This document shows positions 3,705-39,937 of a stretch of 64,000 nt of DNA, one piece after another; the stretch's first letter is position 1; each line of letters opens with the position of its first letter. The DNA lies in contig NZ_CP092099.1 of NCBI RefSeq assembly GCF_022259695.1, forward strand, positions 3,494,001 to 3,558,000. Direction: 5' to 3'. The notes beneath the pieces are model-generated. The model did not search any database, had not been told where the DNA came from, and was given only the letters and a program-made list of their open reading frames with translations. This DNA is from Flaviramulus sp. BrNp1-15 (GTDB taxonomy: Bacteria; Bacteroidota; Bacteroidia; Flavobacteriales; Flavobacteriaceae). Made by a program: the position numbers and the translations under genes.

Positions 3705-4979
3705 CTATTTTGGAAATTTAAGTCTTATTTCTTCTAAACACAAATTGTGAATACTACCAATATGTGTATGTTTTTTTGAGGTATCAGGTACATAAGTTCC
3801 ATCTTGCACTTGTCCGCCAATTTTTTGGTAAGCTTCTCTAAAACTCATTCCATTTTCAACCAGTGTATTAATATTATCTACTGTAAAAAGATATTTGTAT
3901 TTATCGTCATTAATATCAATATCTTTTACAATAATTTGTTGAATGGAATAATTGAAAATGTCTAAAATATCTTTTACATCCTCAAAAGCAGCTATAATAT
4001 TTTCTTTTAACAACTGAAAATCTCTATGATAACCACTTGGCAAATTGTTGGTTATTAAAATCATTTCACTTTGTAAAGCTTGAATTTTATTACACTTACC
4101 ACGAATTAATTCAAAAACATCTGGATTCTTTTTATGTGGCATAATACTACTACCTGTCGTCAATTCATCTGGGAAGGAAATAAATCCAAAATTTTGGCTC
4201 ATATATAAACATACATCCATGGCAAAACGCGACATAGTATTACACAATCCGCCTAAAGCTGCAGAAATTGTGCGTTCGTTTTTTCCTCTAGCCATTTGCG
4301 CAGCAACCACATTATATTTTAATGTTTCAAAACCCATTTCTTTGGTTGTAAATGCTCTATCTATAGGAAACGAACTTCCGTAACCAGCTGCAGAACCCAA
4401 TGGATTTTGATCTACCGTTTTAATGGCTGCATTTAGTAAATACACATCGTCTATCATTAATTCTGCATAGGCAGAAAACCATAATCCAAATGATGATGGC
4501 ATTGCCACTTGCAAATGGGTATAACCTGGTAATACTCTGTCTTTATGCGTATCTGACAAACTTAAAAGTGTTTCAAAAAGCGTTTTAGTTTTTTCTTTAA
4601 CTAAACTTAAGTTTTCTTTATAATATAAATGAAGTGCCACTAAAACCTGATCGTTTCTTGATCGTGCCGTATGAATTTTTTTTCCAACATCGCCTAAAGA
4701 TTTTGTGAGTTCGAATTCTATTTTGGAATGCACGTCTTCAAACTGCTCGTCAATTACAAATGTTCCATTATCTATTTGGTCTTCTAAAACTTTTAAACCT
4801 CTTAGTAATTCAACCAATTCTTCAACAGTTATAATTCCTGCTTTTTGAAGCATTTTAGCATGCGCCTTGGATGCTTGAACATCATATTTCGCTATGTGGA
4901 TATCAATTTCCCTATCGTTACCTACAGTAAATTGTTCTATTTTTTTATCGATTGATATGCCTTTATCCCAGAGTTTCAT
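3705..4979 (-). CDS. argH: Argininosuccinate lyase
   Basis: A cytoplasmic 424-residue enzyme of the fumarase/aspartase superfamily that splits argininosuccinate into arginine and fumarate, the last step of arginine synthesis. The signature SSIMPHKKNPD (near residue 280) is the superfamily lyase loop with its catalytic Ser. ARSRNDQV near residue 106 and GYTHLQVAMP near 152 are typical ArgH blocks. The protein is slightly shorter at the C-terminus than the E. coli enzyme (about 457). It sits near the 3' end of the Arg/Pro operon, after argE. Confidence 0.96.
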   Translation of the reverse strand: MKLWDKGISIDKKIEQFTVGNDREIDIHIAKYDVQASKAHAKMLQKAGIITVEELVELLRGLKVLEDQIDNGTFVIDEQFEDVHSKIEFELTKSLGDVGKKIHTARSRNDQVLVALHLYYKENLSLVKEKTKTLFETLLSLSDTHKDRVLPGYTHLQVAMPSSFGLWFSAYAELMIDDVYLLNAAIKTVDQNPLGSAAGYGSSFPIDRAFTTKEMGFETLKYNVVAAQMARGKNERTISAALGGLCNTMSRFAMDVCLYMSQNFGFISFPDELTTGSSIMPHKKNPDVFELIRGKCNKIQALQSEMILITNNLPSGYHRDFQLLKENIIAAFEDVKDILDIFNYSIQQIIVKDIDINDDKYKYLFTVDNINTLVENGMSFREAYQKIGGQVQDGTYVPDTSKKHTHIGSIHNLCLEEIRLKFPK

Positions 4980-5014: not shown

Positions 5015-6079
5015 TTAGACGATTACACGGTTTAACAATTCAATATAAATTTCAATGCCTTCTTTTATTTCGTTTAAATAAATAAATTCATCTGCCGAAT
5101 GTGAACGTGTACTATCTCCTGGTCCTAGCTTTAAAGACGGACAAGATAATGCAGCTTGGTCTGACAGTGTTGGTGACCCATAAGTTGATCTTCCCATTGC
5201 AATTCCGGCTTTAACCAAATCATGATTTAATGGAATTGATGATGAATTTAATCTTAAGCTTCGTGGTACAATGCTGTCGCAAGGTGCTTTTTTCTGTAAA
5301 ATATCTGCAACTTCTTGATTTGAATACGCATCGTTTACACGAACATCTATTACTAGCTTTACATCTGCAGGAACAGCATTATGTTGCTTTCCTGCGTTAA
5401 TTTGAGTAACCGTTAATTTCACATCACCTAAAGCTTCAGAAGTCTTTTTAAACCTAAAATCTTTAAACCATTTTAAAACTTCAATAGTATTATAAATAGC
5501 ATTATTATCGTTTGGATGTGCTGCATGACTTGGTGTTCCTAAAACCTCTGCATCAAAAACTACTAAGCCTTTTTCGGCAACTGCCAGATTCATCAAAGTG
5601 GGTTCGCCAACAATTGCGACATCTACTTTTGGAATCACCGCAAGCATACTGTTTAATCCATCTGGTCCGCTGCTTTCTTCTTCCGCAGAAGCTACAATAA
5701 CCAAATTATATTTTAAATCTTTTTGATTGTAGAAATAAGTAAAAGTAGCTATTAAAGATACCAAACACCCACCAGCATCGTTGCTTCCTAAGCCATATAA
5801 TTTTCCATCTTCTACAATAGCTTTAAACGGATCTTTTGTATATGCCGAATTTGGCTTTACAGTATCGTGATGCGAATTTAATAGAAGCGTTGGTTTGTTA
5901 TTATCAAAATACTTGTTGGTTGCCCAAACGTTATTTTTAGTTCGTTTGTATTCAATATTATAATTCTTAAACCACGTTTCAATAAGCACCGCTGTTTCAT
6001 CTTCTTCTGATGAAAAAGATTGTGTTTCAATGAGTTTTTTAAGTAACTCAATAGCTTCATTTGTTAGTTGCTGAATCAT
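5015..6079 (-). CDS. argE: M20-family acyl-ornithine deacylase (ArgE-type)
   Basis: A 354-residue metallopeptidase-fold amidohydrolase. The M20 metal site is visible as NSHHDTV (near residue 67), the aspartate in GSNDAGG (near 97) and AEEESSG (near 132). In this operon it should release ornithine from N-acetyl- or N-succinyl-ornithine, or act after carbamoylation on N-acyl-citrulline, which fits the adjacent N-acyl-ornithine carbamoyltransferase. The start overlaps the argB stop by 4 nt, which suggests translational coupling. Confidence 0.9.
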   Translation of the reverse strand: MIQQLTNEAIELLKKLIETQSFSSEEDETAVLIETWFKNYNIEYKRTKNNVWATNKYFDNNKPTLLLNSHHDTVKPNSAYTKDPFKAIVEDGKLYGLGSNDAGGCLVSLIATFTYFYNQKDLKYNLVIVASAEEESSGPDGLNSMLAVIPKVDVAIVGEPTLMNLAVAEKGLVVFDAEVLGTPSHAAHPNDNNAIYNTIEVLKWFKDFRFKKTSEALGDVKLTVTQINAGKQHNAVPADVKLVIDVRVNDAYSNQEVADILQKKAPCDSIVPRSLRLNSSSIPLNHDLVKAGIAMGRSTYGSPTLSDQAALSCPSLKLGPGDSTRSHSADEFIYLNEIKEGIEIYIELLNRVIV

Positions 6080-6852
6080 AAATACAGGGTTGTGAATTTT
6101 TGATTTCTATTACTAATAACCGTTGGATTTCCTATAATAACTTTTGAAACGCCTTCGTATAAAGCATGGTAACAGTTATCTAATTTGGGTAACATGCCAT
6201 CAACAAATGTTCCTTTTATTTTTAAAGTTTCGTAAGTTCCTGTGTCCATAAAATCGATTACCGAATTATCATCAGTAACAGATAATAAAACGCCATCTTT
6301 TTCGAAACAATAAATCAACTCGGTTTTATAATGTTTAGACAAACCAATCGCTAATTCTGATGCTATAGTATCTGCATTGGTATTTAAAAGTTGTCCATTA
6401 CTGTCATGTGTTATTGCACAAAAAACAGGAGTAATATCATTGTCTAATAACGCATTTATTGCAGCTGTATTTACTTTTTTAACATCACCTACAAAACCAT
6501 AATCTATCTTTTTAACTGGTCGTTTTACAGATAAAATTGTATTTCCATCTGCGCCAGTAAAACCAATAGCATTACATTGATTTGCTTGTAATTTTGCTAC
6601 AATATTCTTGTTGATTTTTCCAGCATAAACCATGGTAATAATATCTAAAGTATTAGCATCCGTAATACGTCTACCATCTATCATATAAACTGGCACATTC
6701 ATATCTTTAGCTAATTTGGTAGCTAATTTACCACCACCATGCACTAAAACCTTAGGACCATTAATTGATGAAAATTGTGATAAAAACTTCTCTAAAGCTA
6801 AATCATCATCTATAATGTTTCCGCCTACTTTAATAACTTTTAATTCCTCCAT
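6076..6852 (-). CDS. argB: Acetylglutamate kinase (N-acyl-glutamate kinase)
   Basis: A 258-residue amino-acid kinase family protein that phosphorylates N-acyl-glutamate. VIKVGGNIIDD at the N-terminus and VLVHGGGKLATKLA (about 36-49) form the nucleotide and substrate loops of ArgB. The later NTNADTIASELAIGL segment is also typical. Length matches the short, hexamer-insensitive ArgB type. It is flanked by argF' (1-nt gap) and argE (4-nt overlap). Confidence 0.95.
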   Translation of the reverse strand: MEELKVIKVGGNIIDDDLALEKFLSQFSSINGPKVLVHGGGKLATKLAKDMNVPVYMIDGRRITDANTLDIITMVYAGKINKNIVAKLQANQCNAIGFTGADGNTILSVKRPVKKIDYGFVGDVKKVNTAAINALLDNDITPVFCAITHDSNGQLLNTNADTIASELAIGLSKHYKTELIYCFEKDGVLLSVTDDNSVIDFMDTGTYETLKIKGTFVDGMLPKLDNCYHALYEGVSKVIIGNPTVISNRNQKFTTLYL

Positions 6853-6853
6853 T

Positions 6854-7792
6854 CTAAAGATTTTCTAATATTTTTTTAAGAACCAATTGCGCCGCATAAG
6901 TTCTATTATTTGCTTGTTCTATTACTAAAGAACTATCACTATCTAAAACTGCATCTTCTACAACCACATTTCTACGGACTGGTAAACAATGCATGAATTT
7001 AGCATCATTCAATTTTTGCTTTGTTATCATCCAATTTGGATCTGTATTCAACACTTTTCCGTAATCTTGGTATGAACTCCAGTTTTTGGTATACACAAAA
7101 TCTGCATCTTTAAAAGCTTCTTCTTGATTATGAAGAATTGGTGTGTTAGCTGTGATTTCTGGGTTTAAATCGTAACCTTCTGGATTAGTAATAACAAATT
7201 CTACATCCATTTTCTGCATAGCCTGAATAAAACTATTGGCTACTGCATGCGGTAATGCTTTTACATGAGGCGCCCAACTTAAAACTACTTTGGGTTTTAC
7301 TTTTTTTGAATGTTCTGAAATAGTAATCGCATCAGTTAAACCTTGTAGTGGGTGACCTGTAGCACTTTCCATATTCACGATTGGCACTGAAGCATATTTT
7401 TTAAAAGCATTTAAAACCTGCTCACTTTCATCTTTTTCTTTATCCGTTAATGTTGGGAAAGCCCTAACTGCAATTATATCGCAATATTGAGAAACCACTG
7501 CTGCAGCTTCTTTTATATGTTCTGCAGTGTTGCCATCCATGATGGTGCCATCTCCAAATTCTATTCCCCATGCATCACCAGAAACATTCATCACAATGGG
7601 ATCCATTCCTAAATTTAAAGCGGCTTTTTGTGTACTTAATCGTGTACGTAAACTGGAATTAAAAAACAGTAGTCCTAAAGTTTTGTTCTTCCCTAATGCT
7701 TTAAACTTAAACGGATTTTCCTTTAACTGTTTAGCTTCCTCAATCCAAGAATTGATATTATCTATATCGTGTATGGAGGTATAATTCTTCAT
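6854..7792 (-). CDS. argF': N-acyl-L-ornithine carbamoyltransferase (ArgF')
   Basis: A 312-residue transcarbamylase that carbamoylates N-acetyl- or N-succinyl-ornithine to the N-acyl-citrulline. The carbamoyl-phosphate loop appears as NSSLRTRLSTQKAA (45-58), followed by the distinctive WGIEFGDGTIMDGNTAEH (75-92), HPLQGLTDA and MHCLPVRRN. These differ from canonical ornithine transcarbamylase and match the AOTC/SOTC branch found in Xanthomonas and Bacteroides. Position 90, which in the literature as I remember it separates acetyl (Glu) from succinyl (Pro) specificity, is Ala here, so the acyl group is uncertain. Confidence 0.92.
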   Translation of the reverse strand: MKNYTSIHDIDNINSWIEEAKQLKENPFKFKALGKNKTLGLLFFNSSLRTRLSTQKAALNLGMDPIVMNVSGDAWGIEFGDGTIMDGNTAEHIKEAAAVVSQYCDIIAVRAFPTLTDKEKDESEQVLNAFKKYASVPIVNMESATGHPLQGLTDAITISEHSKKVKPKVVLSWAPHVKALPHAVANSFIQAMQKMDVEFVITNPEGYDLNPEITANTPILHNQEEAFKDADFVYTKNWSSYQDYGKVLNTDPNWMITKQKLNDAKFMHCLPVRRNVVVEDAVLDSDSSLVIEQANNRTYAAQLVLKKILENL

Positions 7793-7799
7793 TTTAATA

Positions 7800-8564
7800 T
7801 TATTTTACTTTGGTAAACGGCACTTTATTTTCAAAGGCATTTATAATAAAATTATCTTCTATCCCGTTTACAATCCATGTTTCTATATTTGCTTTTCTTG
7901 TTACTGAAGCGGCTTCAATTTTAGACAACATACCACCGCTACCGTGAGACGATTTTGAATTAACAACCTGCTTCTCTAATTCATTAAAATCTATTACTTC
8001 CTCTATAGTTTTTGGTGTTTTACTTTCAATAGAATCTTTAGTATAAATACCATTGGTATTAGTTGCGATAATAAATAGATCAACATTTAAAAGTGATGCG
8101 GTTAATGCACCTAATTTATCATTATCACCAAACTTAATTTCATCGGTTGCAACAGTATCATTTTCATTTATAATTGGTATGTAATTGTTGTTTACTAAAA
8201 CATTTATAGTATCTGAAATGTTTGTTTTACTTTCTTCTTTTTCAAAATCTGAGTATGACAACAAACACTGTGAAGTTAGCAAACCATACTCCCTAAAAAT
8301 CTCCTGATAAATACGAATTAAATGAGGCTGACCAATAGATGCCAAGGCTTGTTTTACATTTATAGCTTTACCTTTACTTTCTAATTTTACAAACTGTTTA
8401 GCCACAGCAATTGCACCAGAACTCACAATAATAAACTCACAAGTATCCTGAAGTTTTGCAATTTGGTTTGCTATATCTTCAATTTTACCTCTTGAAATAT
8501 TATCGGTTTCTTTGGTAAGTGTGTTAGAGCCTATCTTAAGTAATATGCGTTTCTTCTGCTTCAT
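7800..8564 (-). CDS. proB: Glutamate 5-kinase, short form without PUA domain
   Basis: A 254-residue amino-acid kinase domain that phosphorylates glutamate for proline synthesis. ILLKIGSNTLT starts the nucleotide fold and IIVSSGAIAVA, IINENDTVATDEIKFGDNDKL and GSGGMLSKIEAA are the characteristic ProB blocks. The E. coli enzyme is about 367 residues with a C-terminal PUA domain; this one ends after the kinase domain. It sits directly upstream of argF' and 1 nt after proA. Confidence 0.93.
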   Translation of the reverse strand: MKQKKRILLKIGSNTLTKETDNISRGKIEDIANQIAKLQDTCEFIIVSSGAIAVAKQFVKLESKGKAINVKQALASIGQPHLIRIYQEIFREYGLLTSQCLLSYSDFEKEESKTNISDTINVLVNNNYIPIINENDTVATDEIKFGDNDKLGALTASLLNVDLFIIATNTNGIYTKDSIESKTPKTIEEVIDFNELEKQVVNSKSSHGSGGMLSKIEAASVTRKANIETWIVNGIEDNFIINAFENKVPFTKVK

Positions 8565-8565
8565 T

Positions 8566-9759
8566 TTAACGTATTTGTCCGTTACCGTGAACGTACCATT
8601 TATTAGTTACCAAATGCTGTAAACCTATGGGACCACGTTGGTGTAATTTATCTGTACTAATTGCTAACTCGCCACCTAAGCCTAATTGTCCACCATCTGT
8701 AAATCTGGTTGAAGTATTATGATAAACTGCTGCAGTATCAACATTTTCCATAAACAATTTTGCTTCATCATTGTTTGATGTAATTATAGATGAAGAATGT
8801 CCACCAGAATATTTGTTTATCATTTTGATTGCTTCTTGATTTGAAGCAATTTCACCGATTACAATTTTATAATCTAAAAACTCTTCATACCAAATATCAT
8901 CTGATGGAATTTGTTCTAAATCATAAGCTTTTGAAATAGCATTATCTCCTAAAACTTCTATTTTAGAATCTTTTAATTTTGAAATTAATGTTTGAATAAA
9001 CTCGTTTTTATCAGCAAGATTTTCGTCAATTAAAACCTTATCAACTGCATTACACGCAGAAATTTTCGACTTACCATTCATGATAACATGTAAAGCAATA
9101 CCTAAATCGGCTTCCTTTTCAACATACACAAAGTTGTTACCACGTCCGCTAACTATTACAGGGCAAGTAGCATGCTGCTTCACAAAAGCGATTAATCGTT
9201 CACCGCCACGTGGGACAATTAAATCAACTTTTTGAGTTGGGTTTTCTAAAAAAGCCTGTGTTTCGATTCTGTTGAATTGTAAATATTCAACCCAATCTGT
9301 TAAGGTTTCATGTTTCTTTAAAGCCTGATGCCATAATTCAACTATTTTTAGATTTGATTTTAATGATTCTTTTCCTCCTTTAAGTAAAATTTTATTACCC
9401 GATTTAAATGCAATTCCAGCTGCTTCAACGGTTACATCTGGACGCGATTCGTAAATAATTAAAACCGTACCAAACGATGCTGTTTTATTATAAACCTGCA
9501 TCCCATTTTCATGCTTAAAACTAAAACGTTCTACACCAACCGGATCGTCTTGAGATGCTAAATGTGTTACCGATTTTATCATCTCGTTAACTTTTGAATC
9601 GTCAACTTTTAAGCGATCAAACATAGAAATATCATCACCATTATAAGCTTCTAAATCAGCTTTATTAATTTTAATAATAGCTTCACTTTCCTGCTCTAAA
9701 AGCACAGCCATTTCTAGCAATACTGCATTTCTTTTTTCTATGGATAATAAAGTATTCAT
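8566..9759 (-). CDS. proA: Gamma-glutamyl phosphate reductase
   Basis: A 397-residue aldehyde-dehydrogenase-fold enzyme that reduces gamma-glutamyl phosphate to glutamate semialdehyde with NADPH. FGTVLIIYESRPDVT (near 95), LIVPRGGERLI (near 180), and the catalytic Cys region SACNAVDKVLI are ProA signatures, as is the C-terminal STRFTDGGQLGLGGELAISTDKLHQRGP block (cited in part). The gene abuts argD and proB with 1-nt gaps, so proline and arginine enzymes are made from one transcript. Confidence 0.95.
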   Translation of the reverse strand: MNTLLSIEKRNAVLLEMAVLLEQESEAIIKINKADLEAYNGDDISMFDRLKVDDSKVNEMIKSVTHLASQDDPVGVERFSFKHENGMQVYNKTASFGTVLIIYESRPDVTVEAAGIAFKSGNKILLKGGKESLKSNLKIVELWHQALKKHETLTDWVEYLQFNRIETQAFLENPTQKVDLIVPRGGERLIAFVKQHATCPVIVSGRGNNFVYVEKEADLGIALHVIMNGKSKISACNAVDKVLIDENLADKNEFIQTLISKLKDSKIEVLGDNAISKAYDLEQIPSDDIWYEEFLDYKIVIGEIASNQEAIKMINKYSGGHSSSIITSNNDEAKLFMENVDTAAVYHNTSTRFTDGGQLGLGGELAISTDKLHQRGPIGLQHLVTNKWYVHGNGQIR

Positions 9760-9760
9760 T

Positions 9761-10885
9761 TTATAATTCCTTTTTTAGAGCTTCAAAAAACTGATTAATA
9801 TGTTCTTTTTTAATCGTTAATGGCGGTAAAATTCTTAACAGTTTTTTATTTGATGCGCCACCAGTAAAAATATGATGGTTATAAATAAGTTTTTTTCTTA
9901 GGTCTCCAACTTCAAAATCGAATTCTAACCCCAACATTAAGCCTCTTCCTTTTATATTTTTTATCTGCGGAATCGTTTTCGCAATCGACATAAAATATTC
10001 CGACATAGCATTAACATTTTCCATTAAAGCTTCTTCTTCAATAGTATTTAAAACAGCCAAACCTGCTGCACATGCTAAGTGATTACCTCCAAAAGTAGTT
10101 CCTAGCATTCCGTGTTTAGCTTCAATATCAGGATGAATTAAAATTCCTCCAATAGGAAAACCATTACCCATACCTTTCGCTATGGAAATAATATCGGGTG
10201 TTACATTATAATGCTGAAATGCGAAAAATTTACCTGAACGTCCATAACCTGATTGTACCTCATCGGCAATAAACATGGTATTATTGGCTTTACAAAGTGC
10301 AAATACTTGTTCAAAAAAATCTGCGGTGGCTTGGTCTAAACCACCAACACCTTGAATAAACTCTACAATTACCGCACAAACATCGCCTTTTTCAAGTTCT
10401 GCTTTTACACCTAAAATATCATTTAACTCAAGTATTGTTACTTTTTGTTGTGCATTAATTGGAGCAATAATATTTTTATTATCGGTTGCTGCAACAGCAG
10501 CTGAAGTACGCCCATGAAACCCATTTTTAAAAGCAACAACACGTTCTTTTCCTGTTTTAAAAGATGCTAATTTTAAAGCATTTTCGTTAGCTTCTGCACC
10601 AGAATTACATAAAAACAATTCGTAATCTTTACACCCTGAAAGTGCTTCAATTTTATCAGCTAATTCAACTTGTAACGGATTTTGAACTGCATTTGAATAG
10701 AATCCTAATTTTGAAACTTGATTCGTAATAGCATTTACATAGTTAGGATGTGCATGCCCAATTGAAATAACGGCATGACCACCATAAAGATCTAAATACT
10801 CTGTACCATTTTCATCGTAAATATGAATATCTTTACCCGAAACTGGTGTTACATTATATAATGGATAAACGTCAAATAATGGCAT
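9761..10885 (-). CDS. argD: N-acyl-ornithine aminotransferase (class III, ArgD type)
   Basis: A 374-residue PLP enzyme that aminates N-acyl-glutamate semialdehyde. The Schiff-base lysine is in SIAKGMGNGFPIGG and the cofactor Asp in IADEVQSGYGRSG. CNSGAEANENALKLA and GTTFGGNHLACAAGLA are class III markers. The start LFDVYPLYNVTPVSGKD is typical for ArgD. Given proA in the same operon, some ornithine-glutamate semialdehyde exchange cannot be excluded, but biosynthesis is the likely role. Confidence 0.93.
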   Translation of the reverse strand: MPLFDVYPLYNVTPVSGKDIHIYDENGTEYLDLYGGHAVISIGHAHPNYVNAITNQVSKLGFYSNAVQNPLQVELADKIEALSGCKDYELFLCNSGAEANENALKLASFKTGKERVVAFKNGFHGRTSAAVAATDNKNIIAPINAQQKVTILELNDILGVKAELEKGDVCAVIVEFIQGVGGLDQATADFFEQVFALCKANNTMFIADEVQSGYGRSGKFFAFQHYNVTPDIISIAKGMGNGFPIGGILIHPDIEAKHGMLGTTFGGNHLACAAGLAVLNTIEEEALMENVNAMSEYFMSIAKTIPQIKNIKGRGLMLGLEFDFEVGDLRKKLIYNHHIFTGGASNKKLLRILPPLTIKKEHINQFFEALKKEL

Positions 10886-10887
10886 TT

Positions 10888-11682
10888 TTAATTCTCTTTA
10901 ATTTGATTGATTTTTTCAAAAGACGCTACAATACCTTGTATTAATGCTGAACTTAATCCTTGATGTTCCATAGCGTTTAAACCTTCTATCGTGCATCCAC
11001 TTGGTGTTGTTACTCGATCTATTTCCTGTTCTGGATGTCTACCCGATTCTATTAGCAAACTCGCTGCACCATAACAGGTTTGTGTTGCTAACTCATGCGC
11101 TTGTTCTGCTTCAAAGCCTAATTGAATAGCGCCTTGTGTAGTTGCACGAACTAAACGCATCCAAAACGCAATTCCACTAGCGCAAATAACGGTTGCTGCT
11201 TGAACTAAATCTTCAGAAATCACCATTGTTGTTCCTAACTGATTAAATATTTTTTGAGCCAACTCCACTTTATCTTGAGCTGTTTCGTTTGCTGCAATAC
11301 AGGTCATAGATTTTCCTATAGAAATCGCTGTATTTGGCATGACACGAATTATGTTTTTATCACTTCCTAAAATATTTTCAATTCTGGAAATATCAACACC
11401 AGCAGCTACCGAAATCACAACATGTTTCTTAGTTATTTTTGATGCAACACTTTCTAAAACTTTATCAATGTGTTTAGGTTGTAATGCAAAAATGACCATG
11501 TCAGAATTTTTTACAGCTAAAACATTATCGTTAGTTACTGTAACATAATCTTCATCGTAAAATGCTTTAACAGCCGTAGTGTTTTTATCACTTAGATATA
11601 ATGAAGTAAAGGATTTATGACTGATAAGTCCTTTTGCAATTGAGCTTCCTAAATTTCCTGTTCCTATAATAGCTATTTTCAT
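10888..11682 (-). CDS. proC: Pyrroline-5-carboxylate reductase
   Basis: A 264-residue NAD(P)H-dependent reductase that makes proline from pyrroline-5-carboxylate. The Rossmann motif IAIIGTGNLGSSIAKGL is at residues 3-19. The C-terminal half has IRVMPNTAISIGKSMT and the helical signature TTPSGCTIEGLNAMEHQGLS, both diagnostic of ProC. It lies between argC and argD, which completes all three proline genes within the arginine operon. Confidence 0.95.
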   Translation of the reverse strand: MKIAIIGTGNLGSSIAKGLISHKSFTSLYLSDKNTTAVKAFYDEDYVTVTNDNVLAVKNSDMVIFALQPKHIDKVLESVASKITKKHVVISVAAGVDISRIENILGSDKNIIRVMPNTAISIGKSMTCIAANETAQDKVELAQKIFNQLGTTMVISEDLVQAATVICASGIAFWMRLVRATTQGAIQLGFEAEQAHELATQTCYGAASLLIESGRHPEQEIDRVTTPSGCTIEGLNAMEHQGLSSALIQGIVASFEKINQIKEN

Positions 11683-11694
11683 AGTTTCTGTTTT

Positions 11695-12672
11695 TTAAAA
11701 ATAAGTTGCTTTTAAATTCAATCCTTCAGTTTCATTTAATCCAAACATTAAATTCATGTTTTGAATAGCTTGACCTGATGCGCCTTTTAATAAATTATCG
11801 ATAATACTGGTCACCAATAATTTGTTGTTATGCTTATGCAAATGAATTAAACACTTATTCGTGTTCACTACTTGTTTTAAATGCAATTCTTCATCTGAAA
11901 CAAAAGTGAATTTGGCGTCTTTATAAAATTCTTTGAATATGGTTTTAGCTTCTTCAATGTCGCCTTCAAAAACGGTGTAAAGCGTTGCAAAAATGCCTCT
12001 TGAAAAATTTCCTCGATTAGGCATAAAATTAATATCTGAAGAAAAACCATCTTGTAATTGCTTAACCGATTGATTAATTTCTCCTAAATGCTGATGTGTA
12101 AAAGGTTTGTAATACGAAAAATTGTTATCTCTCCAGGTATAATGCGTTGTTGCAGAAAGTGACGTTCCTGCACCTGTTGCACCGGTTACAGCATTAATAT
12201 GTACATCATTATTTAAAAGACCTTTTTCTGCCAATGGTAATAAAGCCAATTGAATTGCTGTTGCAAAACAGCCTGGATTTGCAATATAATTCGCTTTTTC
12301 AATGTCTTCTTTTTGTAATTCAGGTAGACCGTAAACAAATGTTTTTCCTTTAAAAGTTTTGTCTTTTTCAAGTCTAAAATCATTTCCTAAGTCAATAATT
12401 TTTGTGTTTGCTGAAAATGTATTTGCAGATAAAAACTTCACTGAATTCCCATGACCTAAACACAAAAACAAAACATCAATATCTGGGTTTACAGTATCTG
12501 TAAACTCCAAATCTAAACTTCCAACTAAATCCTGATGTACTTTACTAATTTTATTGCCTGCATTAGATGTGCTATAAACAAAATTTATCTTTGTTTTAGG
12601 GTGATTAATTAATAGTCTAATTAATTCGCCTGCAGTATAGCCAGCACCTCCAATGATTCCTACTTGTATCAT
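11695..12672 (-). CDS. argC: N-acyl-gamma-glutamyl-phosphate reductase
   Basis: A 325-residue NADPH-dependent reductase of the Asd/ArgC family. GIIGGAGYTAGELIRLL (5-21) is the dinucleotide fold and YIANPGCFATAIQLALLPL (near 128) carries the catalytic Cys. HQHLGEINQ and MPNRGNFSRGIFATLY are family blocks. Its start overlaps the argG stop by 4 nt, indicating coupled translation. Confidence 0.95.
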   Translation of the reverse strand: MIQVGIIGGAGYTAGELIRLLINHPKTKINFVYSTSNAGNKISKVHQDLVGSLDLEFTDTVNPDIDVLFLCLGHGNSVKFLSANTFSANTKIIDLGNDFRLEKDKTFKGKTFVYGLPELQKEDIEKANYIANPGCFATAIQLALLPLAEKGLLNNDVHINAVTGATGAGTSLSATTHYTWRDNNFSYYKPFTHQHLGEINQSVKQLQDGFSSDINFMPNRGNFSRGIFATLYTVFEGDIEEAKTIFKEFYKDAKFTFVSDEELHLKQVVNTNKCLIHLHKHNNKLLVTSIIDNLLKGASGQAIQNMNLMFGLNETEGLNLKATYF

Positions 12673-13850
12673 GACTCTGAATTTACTTGTTGATAAATTT
12701 TGTTTTGATTACCAAGGATTTTAATAAATCCTTTAGCCTCGTCGGCTGTCCACCCTTTATTTTCTTCACCGTAACTTCCAAACTTGGCATTCATTAAATC
12801 GTGTTTAGAAGAAATTCCATCTAAAGAAAAATGATAAGGTTTAAGAGTAACCGTTACATCTCCAGAAACTTTGCCTTGACTACTTTGCAAAAAGGCTTCC
12901 ATATCTCTCATTACTGGGTCTAAATACTGACCTTCATGTAAATGCATACCATAAAAGCTTGCTATATATTCTTTATGTTGTAATTGCCATTTTGTTAGCG
13001 TATGCTTGTCTAATAAATGGTGAGCTTTTATAGTAATTAACGCTGCCGCTGCCTCAAAACCAACACGCCCTTTAATACCTACAATAGTATCGCCTACATG
13101 AATATCTCTACCAATAGCATAAGCAGACGCTAAATTGTTTAAGGTTTCAATATTGATTTCAGGGTCATTTTCAACACCATTAACTGCAACTAATTCACCT
13201 TTATTAAAAGTTAATTTTACTTTCTCTTCTTCAGCATGTTTTAATTGCGATGGATAAGCACTATCAGGCAATGGCTTTTCTGAAGTTAAGGTTTCTGCTC
13301 CTCCAACACTAGTTCCCCAAAGCCCTTTATTAACAGAGTATTTCGCTTTTTCCCAAGACATATCGATACCATTTTTTTTAAGATAATCGATCTCTTCTTG
13401 TCTGGTTAATTTTTCATCTCTTATTGGTGTGATGATTTTAATATTGGGTGCTAAAGTTTGAAAAATCATATCGAAACGCACTTGATCGTTTCCTGCACCA
13501 GTACTTCCGTGAGCAATATATTCTGCATCAATACTTTTAGCGTATTCAACAATTTCAATAGCTTGAATAATACGCTCTGCACTTACAGATAATGGATAAG
13601 TGTTATTTTTTAAAACATTACCAAAAATTAGATACTTCACAACTTTTTGGTAAAATGTTGCTACTGCATCAATATTCTTATAGGTAGTAACACCCATTTT
13701 ATATGCATTGGCTTCAATTTTTTCAATTTCACCTTTGGTAAAACCACCTGTATTTACACTTACAGCATGTACTTCATATTCTTTTGATAAGCTTACAGCA
13801 CAATATGATGTATCTAATCCGCCACTATAAGCTATTACTAATTTTTTCAT
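12669..13850 (-). CDS. argG: Argininosuccinate synthase
   Basis: A 393-residue ATP pyrophosphatase that joins citrulline and aspartate. The PP-loop AYSGGLDTSY is at residues 8-17. AHGSTGAGNDQVRFD and the segment around SVNKGLWGTSVGG are ArgG signatures. The C-terminal part is shortened and diverged compared with the E. coli type, as is common in Bacteroidota. It is the second gene of the operon, 1 nt after the GNAT gene. Confidence 0.95.
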   Translation of the reverse strand: MKKLVIAYSGGLDTSYCAVSLSKEYEVHAVSVNTGGFTKGEIEKIEANAYKMGVTTYKNIDAVATFYQKVVKYLIFGNVLKNNTYPLSVSAERIIQAIEIVEYAKSIDAEYIAHGSTGAGNDQVRFDMIFQTLAPNIKIITPIRDEKLTRQEEIDYLKKNGIDMSWEKAKYSVNKGLWGTSVGGAETLTSEKPLPDSAYPSQLKHAEEEKVKLTFNKGELVAVNGVENDPEINIETLNNLASAYAIGRDIHVGDTIVGIKGRVGFEAAAALITIKAHHLLDKHTLTKWQLQHKEYIASFYGMHLHEGQYLDPVMRDMEAFLQSSQGKVSGDVTVTLKPYHFSLDGISSKHDLMNAKFGSYGEENKGWTADEAKGFIKILGNQNKIYQQVNSES

Positions 13851-13851
13851 T

Positions 13852-14475
13852 TTATTGTTTTTTGTCTTTTTTAAGAAACATGGTTTGCTTAATATTTTTC
13901 AATCTAGTCCAAACCTTTTTATCGTAATCGTGATTATGTATTTTTTTATTCTCTTTTGCAGGATCGTATAACATTCCTGTACACAAACACATTTTTCGAT
14001 TGGTTCGCGTTAAAACATCATAATTTTTACAAGTTTGACAGCCATCCCAAAATGTTTGATCATCGGTTAATTCAGAAAAAGTAACTGGTTTATAACCTAA
14101 ATCGCTATTCATTTTCATTACAGCTAAACCTGTAGTGATACTAAAAATTTTGGCATCCGGAAACTTGTTTCTGGAATGTTCAAAAATTTTATGTTTAATT
14201 TGTTTAGCAAGTCCTTCTCCGCGATAATCCGGATGTACAATTAAACCTGAATTGGCAACAAACTTACCATGTCCCCATTTTTCTATATAGCAAAACCCAG
14301 CAAACTTATCTCCATCTAAAGCGATAACAGCATTACCGTTTTCCATTTTTGTTGAAATATATTCTGGAGTACGTCTAGCAATACCTGTACCTCGAACAGC
14401 TGCAGATTCTGCAATGGTTTCGCAAATGATTTCTGCGTATTTAATATGTGATTTATCGGCTATTAAAACCTTCAT
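13852..14475 (-). CDS. GNAT N-acetyltransferase with C-terminal Cys motif, candidate N-acyl-glutamate synthase
   Basis: A 207-residue protein with one GNAT domain. The acyl-CoA loop is HPDYRGEGLAKQI (81-93). It heads the arginine operon, which otherwise lacks an argA or argJ, so it is the best candidate for the first acylation of glutamate; this is inference from context. Residues 143-170 contain CxxC (146,149) and CxC (163,165), which could bind a metal or give redox or structural control. The C-terminal 30 residues are Lys-rich. Start at 14475 follows a leader with two Arg-rich micro-ORFs. Confidence 0.8.
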   Translation of the reverse strand: MKVLIADKSHIKYAEIICETIAESAAVRGTGIARRTPEYISTKMENGNAVIALDGDKFAGFCYIEKWGHGKFVANSGLIVHPDYRGEGLAKQIKHKIFEHSRNKFPDAKIFSITTGLAVMKMNSDLGYKPVTFSELTDDQTFWDGCQTCKNYDVLTRTNRKMCLCTGMLYDPAKENKKIHNHDYDKKVWTRLKNIKQTMFLKKDKKQ

Positions 14476-14559
14476 TTCCTAATTTGTGTTGAATAATAAT
14501 TATGTTTTTTTTTGATAGCTGAACTGGACTCACCTAGTTCAATAAACAGATATACACCC

Positions 14560-14589
14560 TTACGGGCGACGAGGAAAAATACGGCGCAT
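14560..14589 (-). CDS. Putative Arg/Pro leader micro-ORF, MRRIFPRRP
   Basis: A nine-codon frame reading MRRIFPRRP then TAA. Four codons are Arg (CGC, CGT, CGT, CGC) and two are Pro. All Arg codons are CGN, which makes this a GC-rich islet in AT-rich intergenic DNA. It lies 84 nt before the first gene of an operon that makes exactly arginine and proline. The stop codon sits in a CCC/GGG hairpin. Translation is not proven; a chance ORF of nine codons is possible. Confidence 0.5.
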   Translation of the reverse strand: MRRIFPRRP

Positions 14590-14700
14590 AGAATGATTGT
14601 TAATTTTTGAATTAACTTTATTTTGAAATACTATGATAAAAATTCTGGACAATTTGAAAAAATTAAAATTACGATACTAAAGTTTGGCTAATTTGGAGTA

Positions 14701-14772
14701 TTAGAAGCGGCGGCGACTGCGCACGGGCAAACCGGGTATAGTACAACGTATTTTATTTTTTAAATTTTTCAT
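14701..14772 (-). CDS. Putative arginine leader peptide, 23 residues ending VRSRRRF
   Basis: A 23-codon frame beginning MKNLKNKIRC and ending LPVRSRRRF then TAA. It has five Arg codons, four of them CGC including three in a row. In a genome this AT-rich a 34-nt stretch with 25 G or C (14703-14736) needs an explanation, and an Arg-codon run upstream of an arginine operon supplies one. By analogy with amino-acid leader peptides, ribosome stalling here would report charged tRNA-Arg. The mechanism after stalling is not clear from the sequence. Confidence 0.62.
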   Translation of the reverse strand: MKNLKNKIRCTIPGLPVRSRRRF

Positions 14773-14842
14773 ATGGTAAAACTATAATTTTATTTAATAC
14801 AACTAATAAAACCTTAATAGTTTTTTTAAAAAATTATAAATA

Positions 14843-14869
14843 TTTAACAAAAACATGATGTTTGTTAAA
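14843..14869. promoter_or_regulatory. Inverted repeat, possible operator upstream of the Arg leader
   Basis: The arms TTTAACAAA (14843-14851) and TTTGTTAAA (14861-14869) are perfect inverted repeats with a 9-nt spacer. The position, about 70 nt upstream of the first micro-ORF, suits a regulator site or promoter-proximal element. No arginine repressor is encoded in the window to connect it to. Confidence 0.35.
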
Positions 14870-14904: not shown

Positions 14905-14938
14905 AAAAAATGGAGTTCAATTTTATGAACTCCATTTT
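14905..14938 (-). terminator. Intrinsic terminator of the minus-strand sugar operon
   Basis: The stem AAAATGGAGTTCA/TGAACTCCATTTT (14907-14919 with 14926-14938) is followed on the minus strand by T6. It lies 28 nt beyond the stop of the DUF1080 lipoprotein gene and separates that operon from the arginine leader. Confidence 0.85.
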
Positions 14939-14965: not shown

Positions 14966-15700
14966 TTATAAAGCTCTAATCTTGATATCTTTAAACCACA
15001 CTTTATCTCCATGGTCTTGTAAACCTATATGCCCTGTATGGTGTTTGCCAAAATCTTTCCATCCTTTAAATTTAGAGTTTTCAACCATAGCATCCCACTC
15101 TTTACCATGAACAGGAAAACTTACAATTTTTGTTCCGTTCAAGGTTATTGAGCCTTGATTTGTTTTGTGATTAATTTTAACAACACATAAATTCCACTCT
15201 CCCGCTGGTTTGCAAACATCATGTTCTGGCTGAACCAAATCATATAAAGCTCCTGCTTGGTGAAATTTAGGGTTCGCAAAAGCATCAGGATGGCGTTCAT
15301 TATCTAATACCTGAATTTCTGGCCCCGATTGATACGCTTCATTTAATTCTGGATCTTCATAAACACTCCAAAAAATGCCACTATTACCACCTTCAGAAAT
15401 TTTCCATTCTAATGATAATTCAAAATTGGTAAAAGTATCTTTTGTTATAATATTTTTTCCGCCTTCTTCACTTGGCGTAAACACCATTGCTCCATCTTCA
15501 ATAGTCCATTCCGGATACATTTCATCTGTTAAATAGCCTCGCCATTTATCATATGAGGTCCCATCAAAAAGATACACCCAATCATCATGAGATTTAACCT
15601 CAGCTTGTGCTTCAACTTCGGTTTCTGCTGATTGTTTTGTTTTGTCTTTACAAGCTATAAATGCTGCAGTAAAAACTACCAGTAAAATTAATTTCTTCAT
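14966..15700 (-). CDS. DUF1080 (3-keto-disaccharide hydrolase-like) lipoprotein
   Basis: A 244-residue protein with a lipoprotein signal (Cys17) and one LamG-like DUF1080 domain (about 42-244). Typical family text is DDWVYLFDGTSYDKWRGY, NSGIFWSVYEDPE, QVLDNERHPDA and HTGHIGLQDHGDKVWFKDI. Members act on 3-keto-glycosides or bind glycans. It is the last gene of a minus-strand operon with a TIM-barrel isomerase, a Gfo/Idh/MocA oxidoreductase, an MFS transporter and a second TIM-barrel protein. Confidence 0.87.
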   Translation of the reverse strand: MKKLILLVVFTAAFIACKDKTKQSAETEVEAQAEVKSHDDWVYLFDGTSYDKWRGYLTDEMYPEWTIEDGAMVFTPSEEGGKNIITKDTFTNFELSLEWKISEGGNSGIFWSVYEDPELNEAYQSGPEIQVLDNERHPDAFANPKFHQAGALYDLVQPEHDVCKPAGEWNLCVVKINHKTNQGSITLNGTKIVSFPVHGKEWDAMVENSKFKGWKDFGKHHTGHIGLQDHGDKVWFKDIKIRAL

Positions 15701-39698: not shown

Positions 39699-39798
39699 TT
39701 GTTTTTCACCAAAAAGTAAAAAAATTACTTTTTGTCGAAAAAAAACAAAATCATCCACCAGTCCTTTTTATTTTTTTATTTTTACCGTCACAAATAAC

Positions 39799-39937
39799 AG
39801 AGGAAAGATTTGACTGATTGCAACCTCTTTTTATATTGAACTTTTTTTAATCTTAAAAGATACTGAAACAAGTTCAGCATAAATTTAAAAATGCTAAAGG
39901 CAGTGAGAACTTCCTTCGACGTTATCCGTCAAATCTT
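39799..39937 (+). ncRNA. SAM-II-like riboswitch (long-loop form) upstream of metK
   Basis: The core matches what I know of SAM-II: P1 AGAGG/CCTCT (39799-39803 with 39824-39828) encloses GATTTGACTGATTGCAA, and a downstream ATGCTAAAGG (39891-39900) is followed by CAGT, which can pair with ACTG in the P1 loop (39813-39816) to form the pseudoknot. The 60-nt connector holds a CTGAA/TTCAG hairpin, as in long-loop variants. GTCAAATCTT (39928-39937), 16 nt before the ATG, is a perfect complement of AAGATTTGAC (39805-39814) in the aptamer core, giving a clear alternative structure. A local GACG/CGTC hairpin (39918-39930) competes. Confidence 0.75.

Follow-up and report, generated by a model that had tools for sequence, protein, structure and literature searches.

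Accounts of how arginine synthesis is regulated mostly centre on ArgR, and the genome of Flaviramulus sp. BrNp1-15 yields no match to this repressor (PF01316). How, then, does the cell adjust an operon for arginine synthesis? The question is raised by one locus in a stretch of 64,000 nucleotides of that genome, called the window here. Its minus strand carries an upstream gene that ends at 14966 and then a gene for a GNAT acetyltransferase (13852-14475, assigned by Pfam), which is the first of an operon. The leader between the two genes holds two short Arg-rich frames. We propose that this leader is a cis-acting, ribosome-operated sensor of arginine, built in this lineage from two leader peptides in series, and we put the probability of this reading at roughly 0.78.

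Two Arg-rich frames precede an arginine and proline operon

Beyond the GNAT gene, the minus strand carries argG, argC, proC, argD, proA, proB, an N-acylornithine carbamoyltransferase-like gene, argB and argE (5015-13850), and then a lyase of the argH superfamily (3705-4979; Pfam Lyase_1) that is probably argH, a name that rests on its context. Pfam families match argG, argC, proC, argD, proA, proB, the carbamoyltransferase, argB and argE. Curated NCBIfam cut-offs are passed by argC, proC, proA, proB, argB and the carbamoyltransferase (as N-acetylornithine carbamoyltransferase), while argG, argD and argE score under theirs though they pass in Pfam. These families fit the earlier description of the frames as preceding an operon for arginine and proline.

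The first frame, uORF1 (MKNLKNKIRCTIPGLPVRSRRRF; 14701-14772, minus strand), has 23 codons and a stop, with five CGN Arg codons of which three are consecutive CGC, just as it had been described. The second had been taken for a frame of nine codons, MRRIFPRRP, 111 nt past the uORF1 stop. That peptide is encoded there (14560-14589), but it is the C-terminal end of a longer frame, uORF2 (LSRIFIIVFQNKVNSKINNHSMRRIFPRRP; 14560-14652, minus strand), which has a TTG start, 30 codons and a stop, and whose internal Met is not conserved in relatives. Both lie in the GC-rich islets that had been noticed in this AT-rich leader: GC content reaches 62.5% at 14701-14740 and 53% at 14560-14589, compared with 27% across 14476-14850 and 32% in the window. 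By composition the two frames are unusual, and CGCCGCCGC has a single occurrence in the 64-kb window, but they are not unique. Of 929 micro-ORFs in the window that begin with ATG and span 9-40 codons, 17 have at least four Arg codons (both frames counted, some of them nested). Because Arg-rich micro-frames recur in this way, we compared relatives, and it is conservation that makes the case. Between the upstream gene and the leader, at 14907-14938, there is also a 13-bp hairpin with T-runs, probably the terminator of the upstream gene.

The second frame is kept open in relatives and ends in Arg and Pro codons

We assembled 181 leaders: that of the window, a set of 80 and a set of 100, the last being GNAT matches beyond the first 30. 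Exclusion of 27 leaders without AGGTGNGTCC at most 180 nt from the start codon (8 of which have GGTGNGTCC), and of two without the anchor of hairpin B, described below, left 152. These are all distinct over their last 350 nt, and near relatives may double some species; as the species are related, the counts are not independent. Two alignments were used, one of 30 hand-picked leaders (A1) and one of 91 leaders (A2) chosen at less than 80% identity from 154 that bear the core of hairpin C.

Every one of the 152 leaders keeps the uORF2 frame free of stops over 18 codons or more upstream of the codons for RRP; the other two frames are that open in just 32 and 35 leaders. A stop directly follows RRP in 136 of the 152 and is missing from that position in 16. 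If the start is taken as the farthest one that yields 27-40 codons, the 81 leaders with a uORF1 have GTG in 37 cases, TTG in 31, ATG in 12 and none in 1; on this assignment, uORF2 starts are often weak. Codon-position entropy shows no consistent third-position excess over codons 2-20 of uORF2. The five codons before RRP do show an excess in leaders with uORF1 (0.97, 1.13, 1.40) and almost none in leaders without it. What has been kept is openness and an Arg tail, as would be expected of a leader frame whose product is unimportant; it follows that the argument for coding depends on the frame and its codons.

The Arg-rich leader frames of this arginine and proline operon were expected to be retained in relatives, and they are. 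uORF2 keeps its frame and Arg run throughout the 152 anchored leaders, a set chosen for having the hairpin core. For uORF1 the expectation holds in 81 of 152, but that frame is restricted to a lineage, and uORF2 with hairpins B and C is the widespread part. A short frame rich in codons for an amino acid, in front of the operon that makes that amino acid, characterizes a leader-peptide attenuator, and this is what we find; we infer that the frame is translated.

Over the last eight codons of uORF2 in the 152 leaders, 525 of 1216 specify Arg and 278 Pro. In the nine codons before RRP the figures are 305 and 174 of 1368, compared with 3.2% Arg and 3.3% Pro in window genes. Pro is enriched and may be sensed alongside Arg, which is enriched more; the final Pro codon of uORF2 also forms part of hairpin B. 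The choice of Arg codon is strongly CGY. The 525 Arg codons of uORF2 tails comprise CGC 283, CGU 228, CGA 11, AGA 2 and AGG 1, and the 319 of uORF1 tails comprise CGC 213, CGU 67, CGA 16, AGA 15, AGG 7 and CGG 1; Arg usage in window genes is 51% AGA, 28% CGU and 4.5% CGC. The genome's 41 tRNA matches include one tRNA-Arg each with the anticodons ACG, TCG and TCT, and we take CGC and CGU to be decoded by the ACG (inosine) tRNA-Arg. RNA pairing, and not tRNA choice, may be partly responsible for the CGY preference: some of the codon bias of uORF2 can be put down to selection for the hairpin, and perhaps less of that of uORF1.

These codons bear on an alternative in which the nascent peptide is the sensor. 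Free arginine, and not tRNA charging, would stall the ribosome at the Pro-stop of uORF2 and so alter hairpin B, as known from the arrest peptides TnaC with tryptophan and the fungal attenuator peptide with arginine. The usual stop right after RRP is in keeping with such an arrest, as is the frequency of Phe in the tail (181 of the 1368 codons before RRP), and a C-terminal Pro before the stop is a context that slows termination. Arrest peptides, however, hold their key residues at fixed distances, and the spacing of residues upstream of RRP differs among lineages. The 16 leaders without a stop at this point also speak against arrest, and the strong choice of CGY indicates codons rather than residues. 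We consider arrest by free arginine unlikely, and favour a ribosome that responds to the charging of tRNA at the Arg codons.

Two conserved hairpins lie at and beyond the end of uORF2

The conserved RNA consists of two hairpins, B around the stop codon and C beyond it. Hairpin B (14555-14568, minus strand), identified in alignment A2 and by pattern scan, pairs CGCCC with GGGUG around a GUAA loop that holds the stop codon of uORF2. In the 91 sequences of A2, 88.8% of its cells are paired and only one of its five pairs has changed on both sides. Judged by eye, B persists in two leaders (L103 and L104) that have no stop directly after RRP. Hairpin C (14519-14542, minus strand), with its core AGGUGNGUCC at 14526-14535, corresponds to the hairpin that had been noticed at 14520-14541; its arms covary and it is present in relatives. 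Six of its eight pairs have changed on both sides, and the remaining two, G-C pairs at the top, are invariant. The core A-GG-UGNGU-CC is identical in 91 of 91 aligned sequences, which had been selected by that core. Considered together, B and C have 62 both-side-changed cells against 18.5 in shuffled alignments, and 7 of 13 such pairs against 4.3; overall, 92.5% of cells are paired, and the covariation stems mostly from hairpin C. A further hairpin, A (GUUAAUU/AAUUAAC; 14599-14616, minus strand), was found in the 30-leader alignment and lies within uORF2, upstream of its Arg codons. Four of its seven predicted pairs have both partners replaced in one or more of the 30 leaders, and its median folding z is -1.54 in leaders with uORF1 and -0.83 in the others.

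Distances are constrained as well. The core of hairpin C starts 26-29 nt past the first base of the uORF2 stop in 132 of 152 leaders, and from the end of the core to the GNAT start the median is 55 nt (interquartile range 52-58; 152 leaders). The spacer between C and the GNAT start (14476-14518, minus strand) thus has a constrained length, and it is unstructured, with median fold z of +0.41 and +0.44, less folded than shuffles. As a whole, the 300-nt leader of the window folds no better than shuffles (z 0.32).

Several ways in which these hairpins might act on expression were considered. It had been claimed that no U-tract terminator follows; this is true 3' of hairpin C, but a U-rich tract is present after uORF1. 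A terminator scan lists hairpin B of the window as terminator-like, with a weak tail, and at least five T in the eight nucleotides after B are found in only 35 of 148 leaders, which makes B a weak candidate for an ordinary terminator. Sequestration of the start codon is unsupported, since the stretch from C to the AUG is less folded than shuffles. After hairpin C, G makes up 6.2% against 8.5% in other upstream regions of the window, and C 14.1% against 13.4%; being just mildly G-poor, this stretch has no Rho-site signature. With no U-tract after C, a start that is not hidden and no such signature, uORF2 shows no canonical read-out in the sequence. Pairing of the C core with an arm of B (UCGCC:GGUGA) is contradicted by two leaders (L127 and L139) that change B with compensation while the C core stays constant. 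A function of the core as a Shine-Dalgarno-like complement of the 16S tail is unsupported; the assumed 14-mer tail is absent from the genome. Bacteroidota ribosomes are described as generally doing without Shine-Dalgarno pairing (PMC9976891).

Alternatively, B and C could form an aptamer or a site for an RNA-binding protein around the A-GG-UGNGU-CC core, with the frame merely keeping B open. The identity of the core in all 91 sequences would suit such a site, although the sequences were chosen by it, and so would the persistence of B in the two stop-less leaders and the constrained spacing to the start codon. Yet B and C have fewer conserved bases than most known aptamers, and the Arg-codon tail is conserved along with the hairpins while the other frames are mostly closed. 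We hold a site of this kind, acting in place of a ribosome stall, to be improbable.

Hairpin C could also be read at the level of DNA, as a palindromic operator for a transcription factor that replaced ArgR. Its arms form an inverted repeat some 55 nt ahead of the start codon, and TAGGTGNGTCC occurs once in the genome of this strain, but the reversed control pattern also occurs once. Its half-sites co-vary (for example GGAAAU/AUUUCC, GAACU/AGUUC) like the arms of an RNA stem, whereas operators keep the sequence of their half-sites. The promoter-like boxes of the leader frames, moreover, are all upstream of C. An operator seems very unlikely.

The leader is widespread in Flavobacteriaceae, where ArgR is rare

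A covariance model of B and C (R1), searched with the stricter filters of Infernal, matches 125 of 199 genomes of the family (128 matches), and 121 of the 128 share the strand of the orthologous GNAT gene and precede it by 30-250 nt. Nine of 130 GNAT-bearing genomes have no R1 match. Two further strong matches (in G152 and G084) precede a different first gene and then argG. The first gene of G152 encodes a GNAT recognised by Pfam, without significant match to the GNAT of the window, and the protein in G084 is 48% identical to it. That the leader has been kept before an exchanged first gene and argG indicates that it belongs to the operon. The replacement genes, at 1154-1738 of locus L268 and 1255-1848 of locus L265, are of an unrelated GNAT type, share 48% identity with each other and retain the leader. 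Five matches away from the operon are all weak (E 2e-4 to 8e-3), and one of these, in G074, is antisense within a ribosomal L25-type gene. A wider regulon of B/C elements was considered and rejected, given that the genome of this strain has one R1 match and that the five off-operon matches among the 128 are weak.

In a sample of 395 genomes of the phylum, the 16 strong R1 matches (E <1e-7) are all in Flavobacteriaceae; other families contribute eight more, all of them weak (E 3e-4 to 9e-3). R1 has no match among the 19 listed genomes of genus g128 (taken to be Flavobacterium), and the phage collection contains no relative of the leader. ArgR is matched in 139 of the 395 genomes of the phylum sample and in one of the 199 family genomes (G174; 27 bits, a weak match), which also has the leader. 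Nearly all sampled genomes of the family are thus without ArgR, and most carry the conserved leader frame and the structured RNA. This makes it directly testable whether a sensor based on translation has taken the place of a repressor. That the two islets are functionless GC-rich segments that arose by chance, the 17 equally Arg-rich micro-ORFs of the window notwithstanding, is contradicted by conservation, covariation and genomic association in relatives, and we give it hardly any weight.

In one genome of genus g128 (G127), the GNAT and argG genes are preceded by the frame MNKISLHITSLSRTISPGTSPEVRMLSI instead of a B/C leader (locus L269, GNAT gene at 1489). This frame stands 5 nt after a TAnnTTTG box and has two CGG codons. 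Searched as a pattern, its PGTSPEV stretch turns up once in the G127 genome and in none of four others tested.

The first frame is a lineage-restricted module with a predicted long-range stem

A promoter-like -7 box, TAGTTTTA (14777-14784, minus strand), lies 4 nt upstream of the uORF1 start. In 69 of 81 uORF1 leaders, a TAnnTTTN box stands 2-9 nt ahead of the start codon (in 67 of them at 4-5 nt), compared with 7% of mononucleotide shuffles; TAnnTTTG is described as the flavobacterial consensus box (PMC9723704). uORF1 is absent from 71 leaders, and in 49 of these an ATG start makes uORF2 18-40 codons long. A box precedes 31 of these 49 starts, mostly at 7 nt (23) and mostly as TAnnTTTG (24), against 5.5% in the control. 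The box therefore tends to precede whichever frame comes first, uORF1 or, where that is absent, uORF2. Its position 4 nt before uORF1 suggests a nearly leaderless transcript. More generally, the transcripts look leaderless or nearly so, their first frame apparently opening very close to the 5' end.

In the minimum-energy fold, the head of uORF1 is the 5' arm (14739-14771, minus strand) of a long-range stem. The predicted 3' arm (14655-14679, minus strand; fold and duplex energies) includes a U-rich tract, AAUUUUAAUUUUUU, 3' of the uORF1 stop, so that the Arg codons would lie in the loop and a stem resembling an intrinsic terminator, with its U-tract, follows uORF1. At least eight T in some 10-nt stretch of the 72 nt after uORF1 are found in 80 of 81 leaders, compared with 33% of shuffles. 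Native head:tail duplexes average -11.85 kcal/mol (80 leaders); swaps among leaders with heads less than 50% identical give -8.02 kcal/mol, and shuffled tails -6.48. These energies suggest lineage-specific compensation between head and tail. RNAalifold found no consensus structure in an alignment of 65 uORF1 regions, and the evidence for the stem therefore comes from the folding of single sequences and from the swaps. Codon-position entropy shows little third-position excess in the first 12 codons of uORF1.

The two modules can be found apart. One leader from a metagenome assembly (L039) has kept uORF1 and lost the uORF2 tail with hairpins B and C, and the core is missing from three of four Confluentibacter leaders (L059, L084 and L088; it is present in L087). 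These cases suggest that the modules are partly redundant.

A model for arginine sensing

Our model is that of a sensor of tRNA charging in two stages, each set by the position of a ribosome, which would change the head:tail stem of uORF1 and hairpin B. The transcript probably begins at or beside the uORF1 start. When arginine is ample, the ribosome would clear uORF1 and the stem would close at the U-tract, leading to premature termination; when arginyl-tRNA(ACG) runs short, a ribosome held up at the consecutive CGC codons would keep the stem open. A read-out of this kind, resembling intrinsic termination, is plausible for uORF1. At uORF2, the Arg codons of the RRP-stop end are also the 5' arm of hairpin B, so a ribosome delayed there would keep B open and allow expression of the operon. 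After its release, B and C would form and expression would fall.

The sensing of arginine is the strong part of this proposal; in choosing a B/C read-out we commit ourselves on weak evidence. Pausing or termination, perhaps assisted by Rho, would be the likeliest read-out, though at well under even odds; an effect on translation or mRNA decay would be less likely, and a binding partner of the C core is a further option. In a broader reading, the uORF2 leader peptide and its hairpin would make up a class of cis-regulatory RNA, common in one family, to which arginine control passed in genomes lacking ArgR; a dedicated partner would read the C core, and a second, independently acting leader peptide would later have been added in series. 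The hairpin would neither terminate transcription nor hide the start, and the core would here be read by an RNA-binding protein, RNA polymerase or the ribosome. We offer this broader reading tentatively and think it has about one chance in three of being right in full.

Relation to known leaders

A run of product codons in a leader frame upstream of a biosynthetic operon is familiar from trpL, hisL and leuL of Enterobacteria. The arg leader differs from these in sensing arginine, in its two serial frames, in a promoter-like box placed nearly at the start and in the putative partner of the C core. A closer relative may be the Bacteroid-trp leader (RF01692) of the same phylum, which is also present in this genome. 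There the trp frame MNTILNKTWWWCFRN (L315 1521-1568, about 3233200; RF01692 match of 61 bits) is followed by a terminator-like hairpin with a T-run and then by an anthranilate synthase gene. Both leaders have a short frame in which the sensed codon is repeated in a row (TWWWC in trp), and in a single-sequence fold the trp leader shows a head:tail pairing like that of uORF1. The frame heads also look alike by eye, MNTILNK.. in trp and MNTLKNKIR.. in a Confluentibacter arg leader, so flavobacterial leader frames may share descent. Unlike the single frame, GC-rich hairpin and T-run of Bacteroid-trp, the arg leader has two frames and hairpins B and C, with no such terminator. It would thus be the same kind of device, outside RF01692.

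Arg codons in a leader frame have been shown by experiment to report arginine in two other settings. In Salmonella orf34/speF, consecutive Arg codons of a 34-codon leader frame sense arginine (PMC6386406). As described there, the switch hairpin lies just 3' of the stop codon, as in the arg leader, and Rho is involved; the likeness is one of description, and speF differs in encoding ornithine decarboxylase, in being induced by ornithine too and in a leader of about 500 nt that hides the RBS. In Staphylococcus aureus, Arg codons of the leader peptide rbfL report arginine limitation (PMC13009471). By the account given there, rbfL has eight codons, uses AGA/AGG and overlaps the RBS of a biofilm regulator, and limitation represses, all unlike the arg leader. 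For Flavobacterium psychrophilum, strong clues for leader-peptide attenuation before operons of amino-acid biosynthesis are mentioned (PMC9723704).

We recognised no description of an arginine leader of Bacteroidota in the open-access literature. Arginine is not mentioned in the main text of Weinberg 2010 (PMC2864571), which lists a 'GUCCY-hairpin' of Bacteroidetes without details. Hairpins B and C are a candidate new RNA family. In Rfam, no family matches the leader at gathering score, and two matches are far below it (E 1.8 and 2.4). RF01692 has no match in the window at gathering score and none in the leader up to E 5. A search of the window that included Flavo-1 (RF01705) gave four matches, all outside the leader. 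Far from the operon, at 39794-39876 on the plus strand, the window also contains a SAM-II riboswitch of the long-loop form (RF01726, 46 bits).
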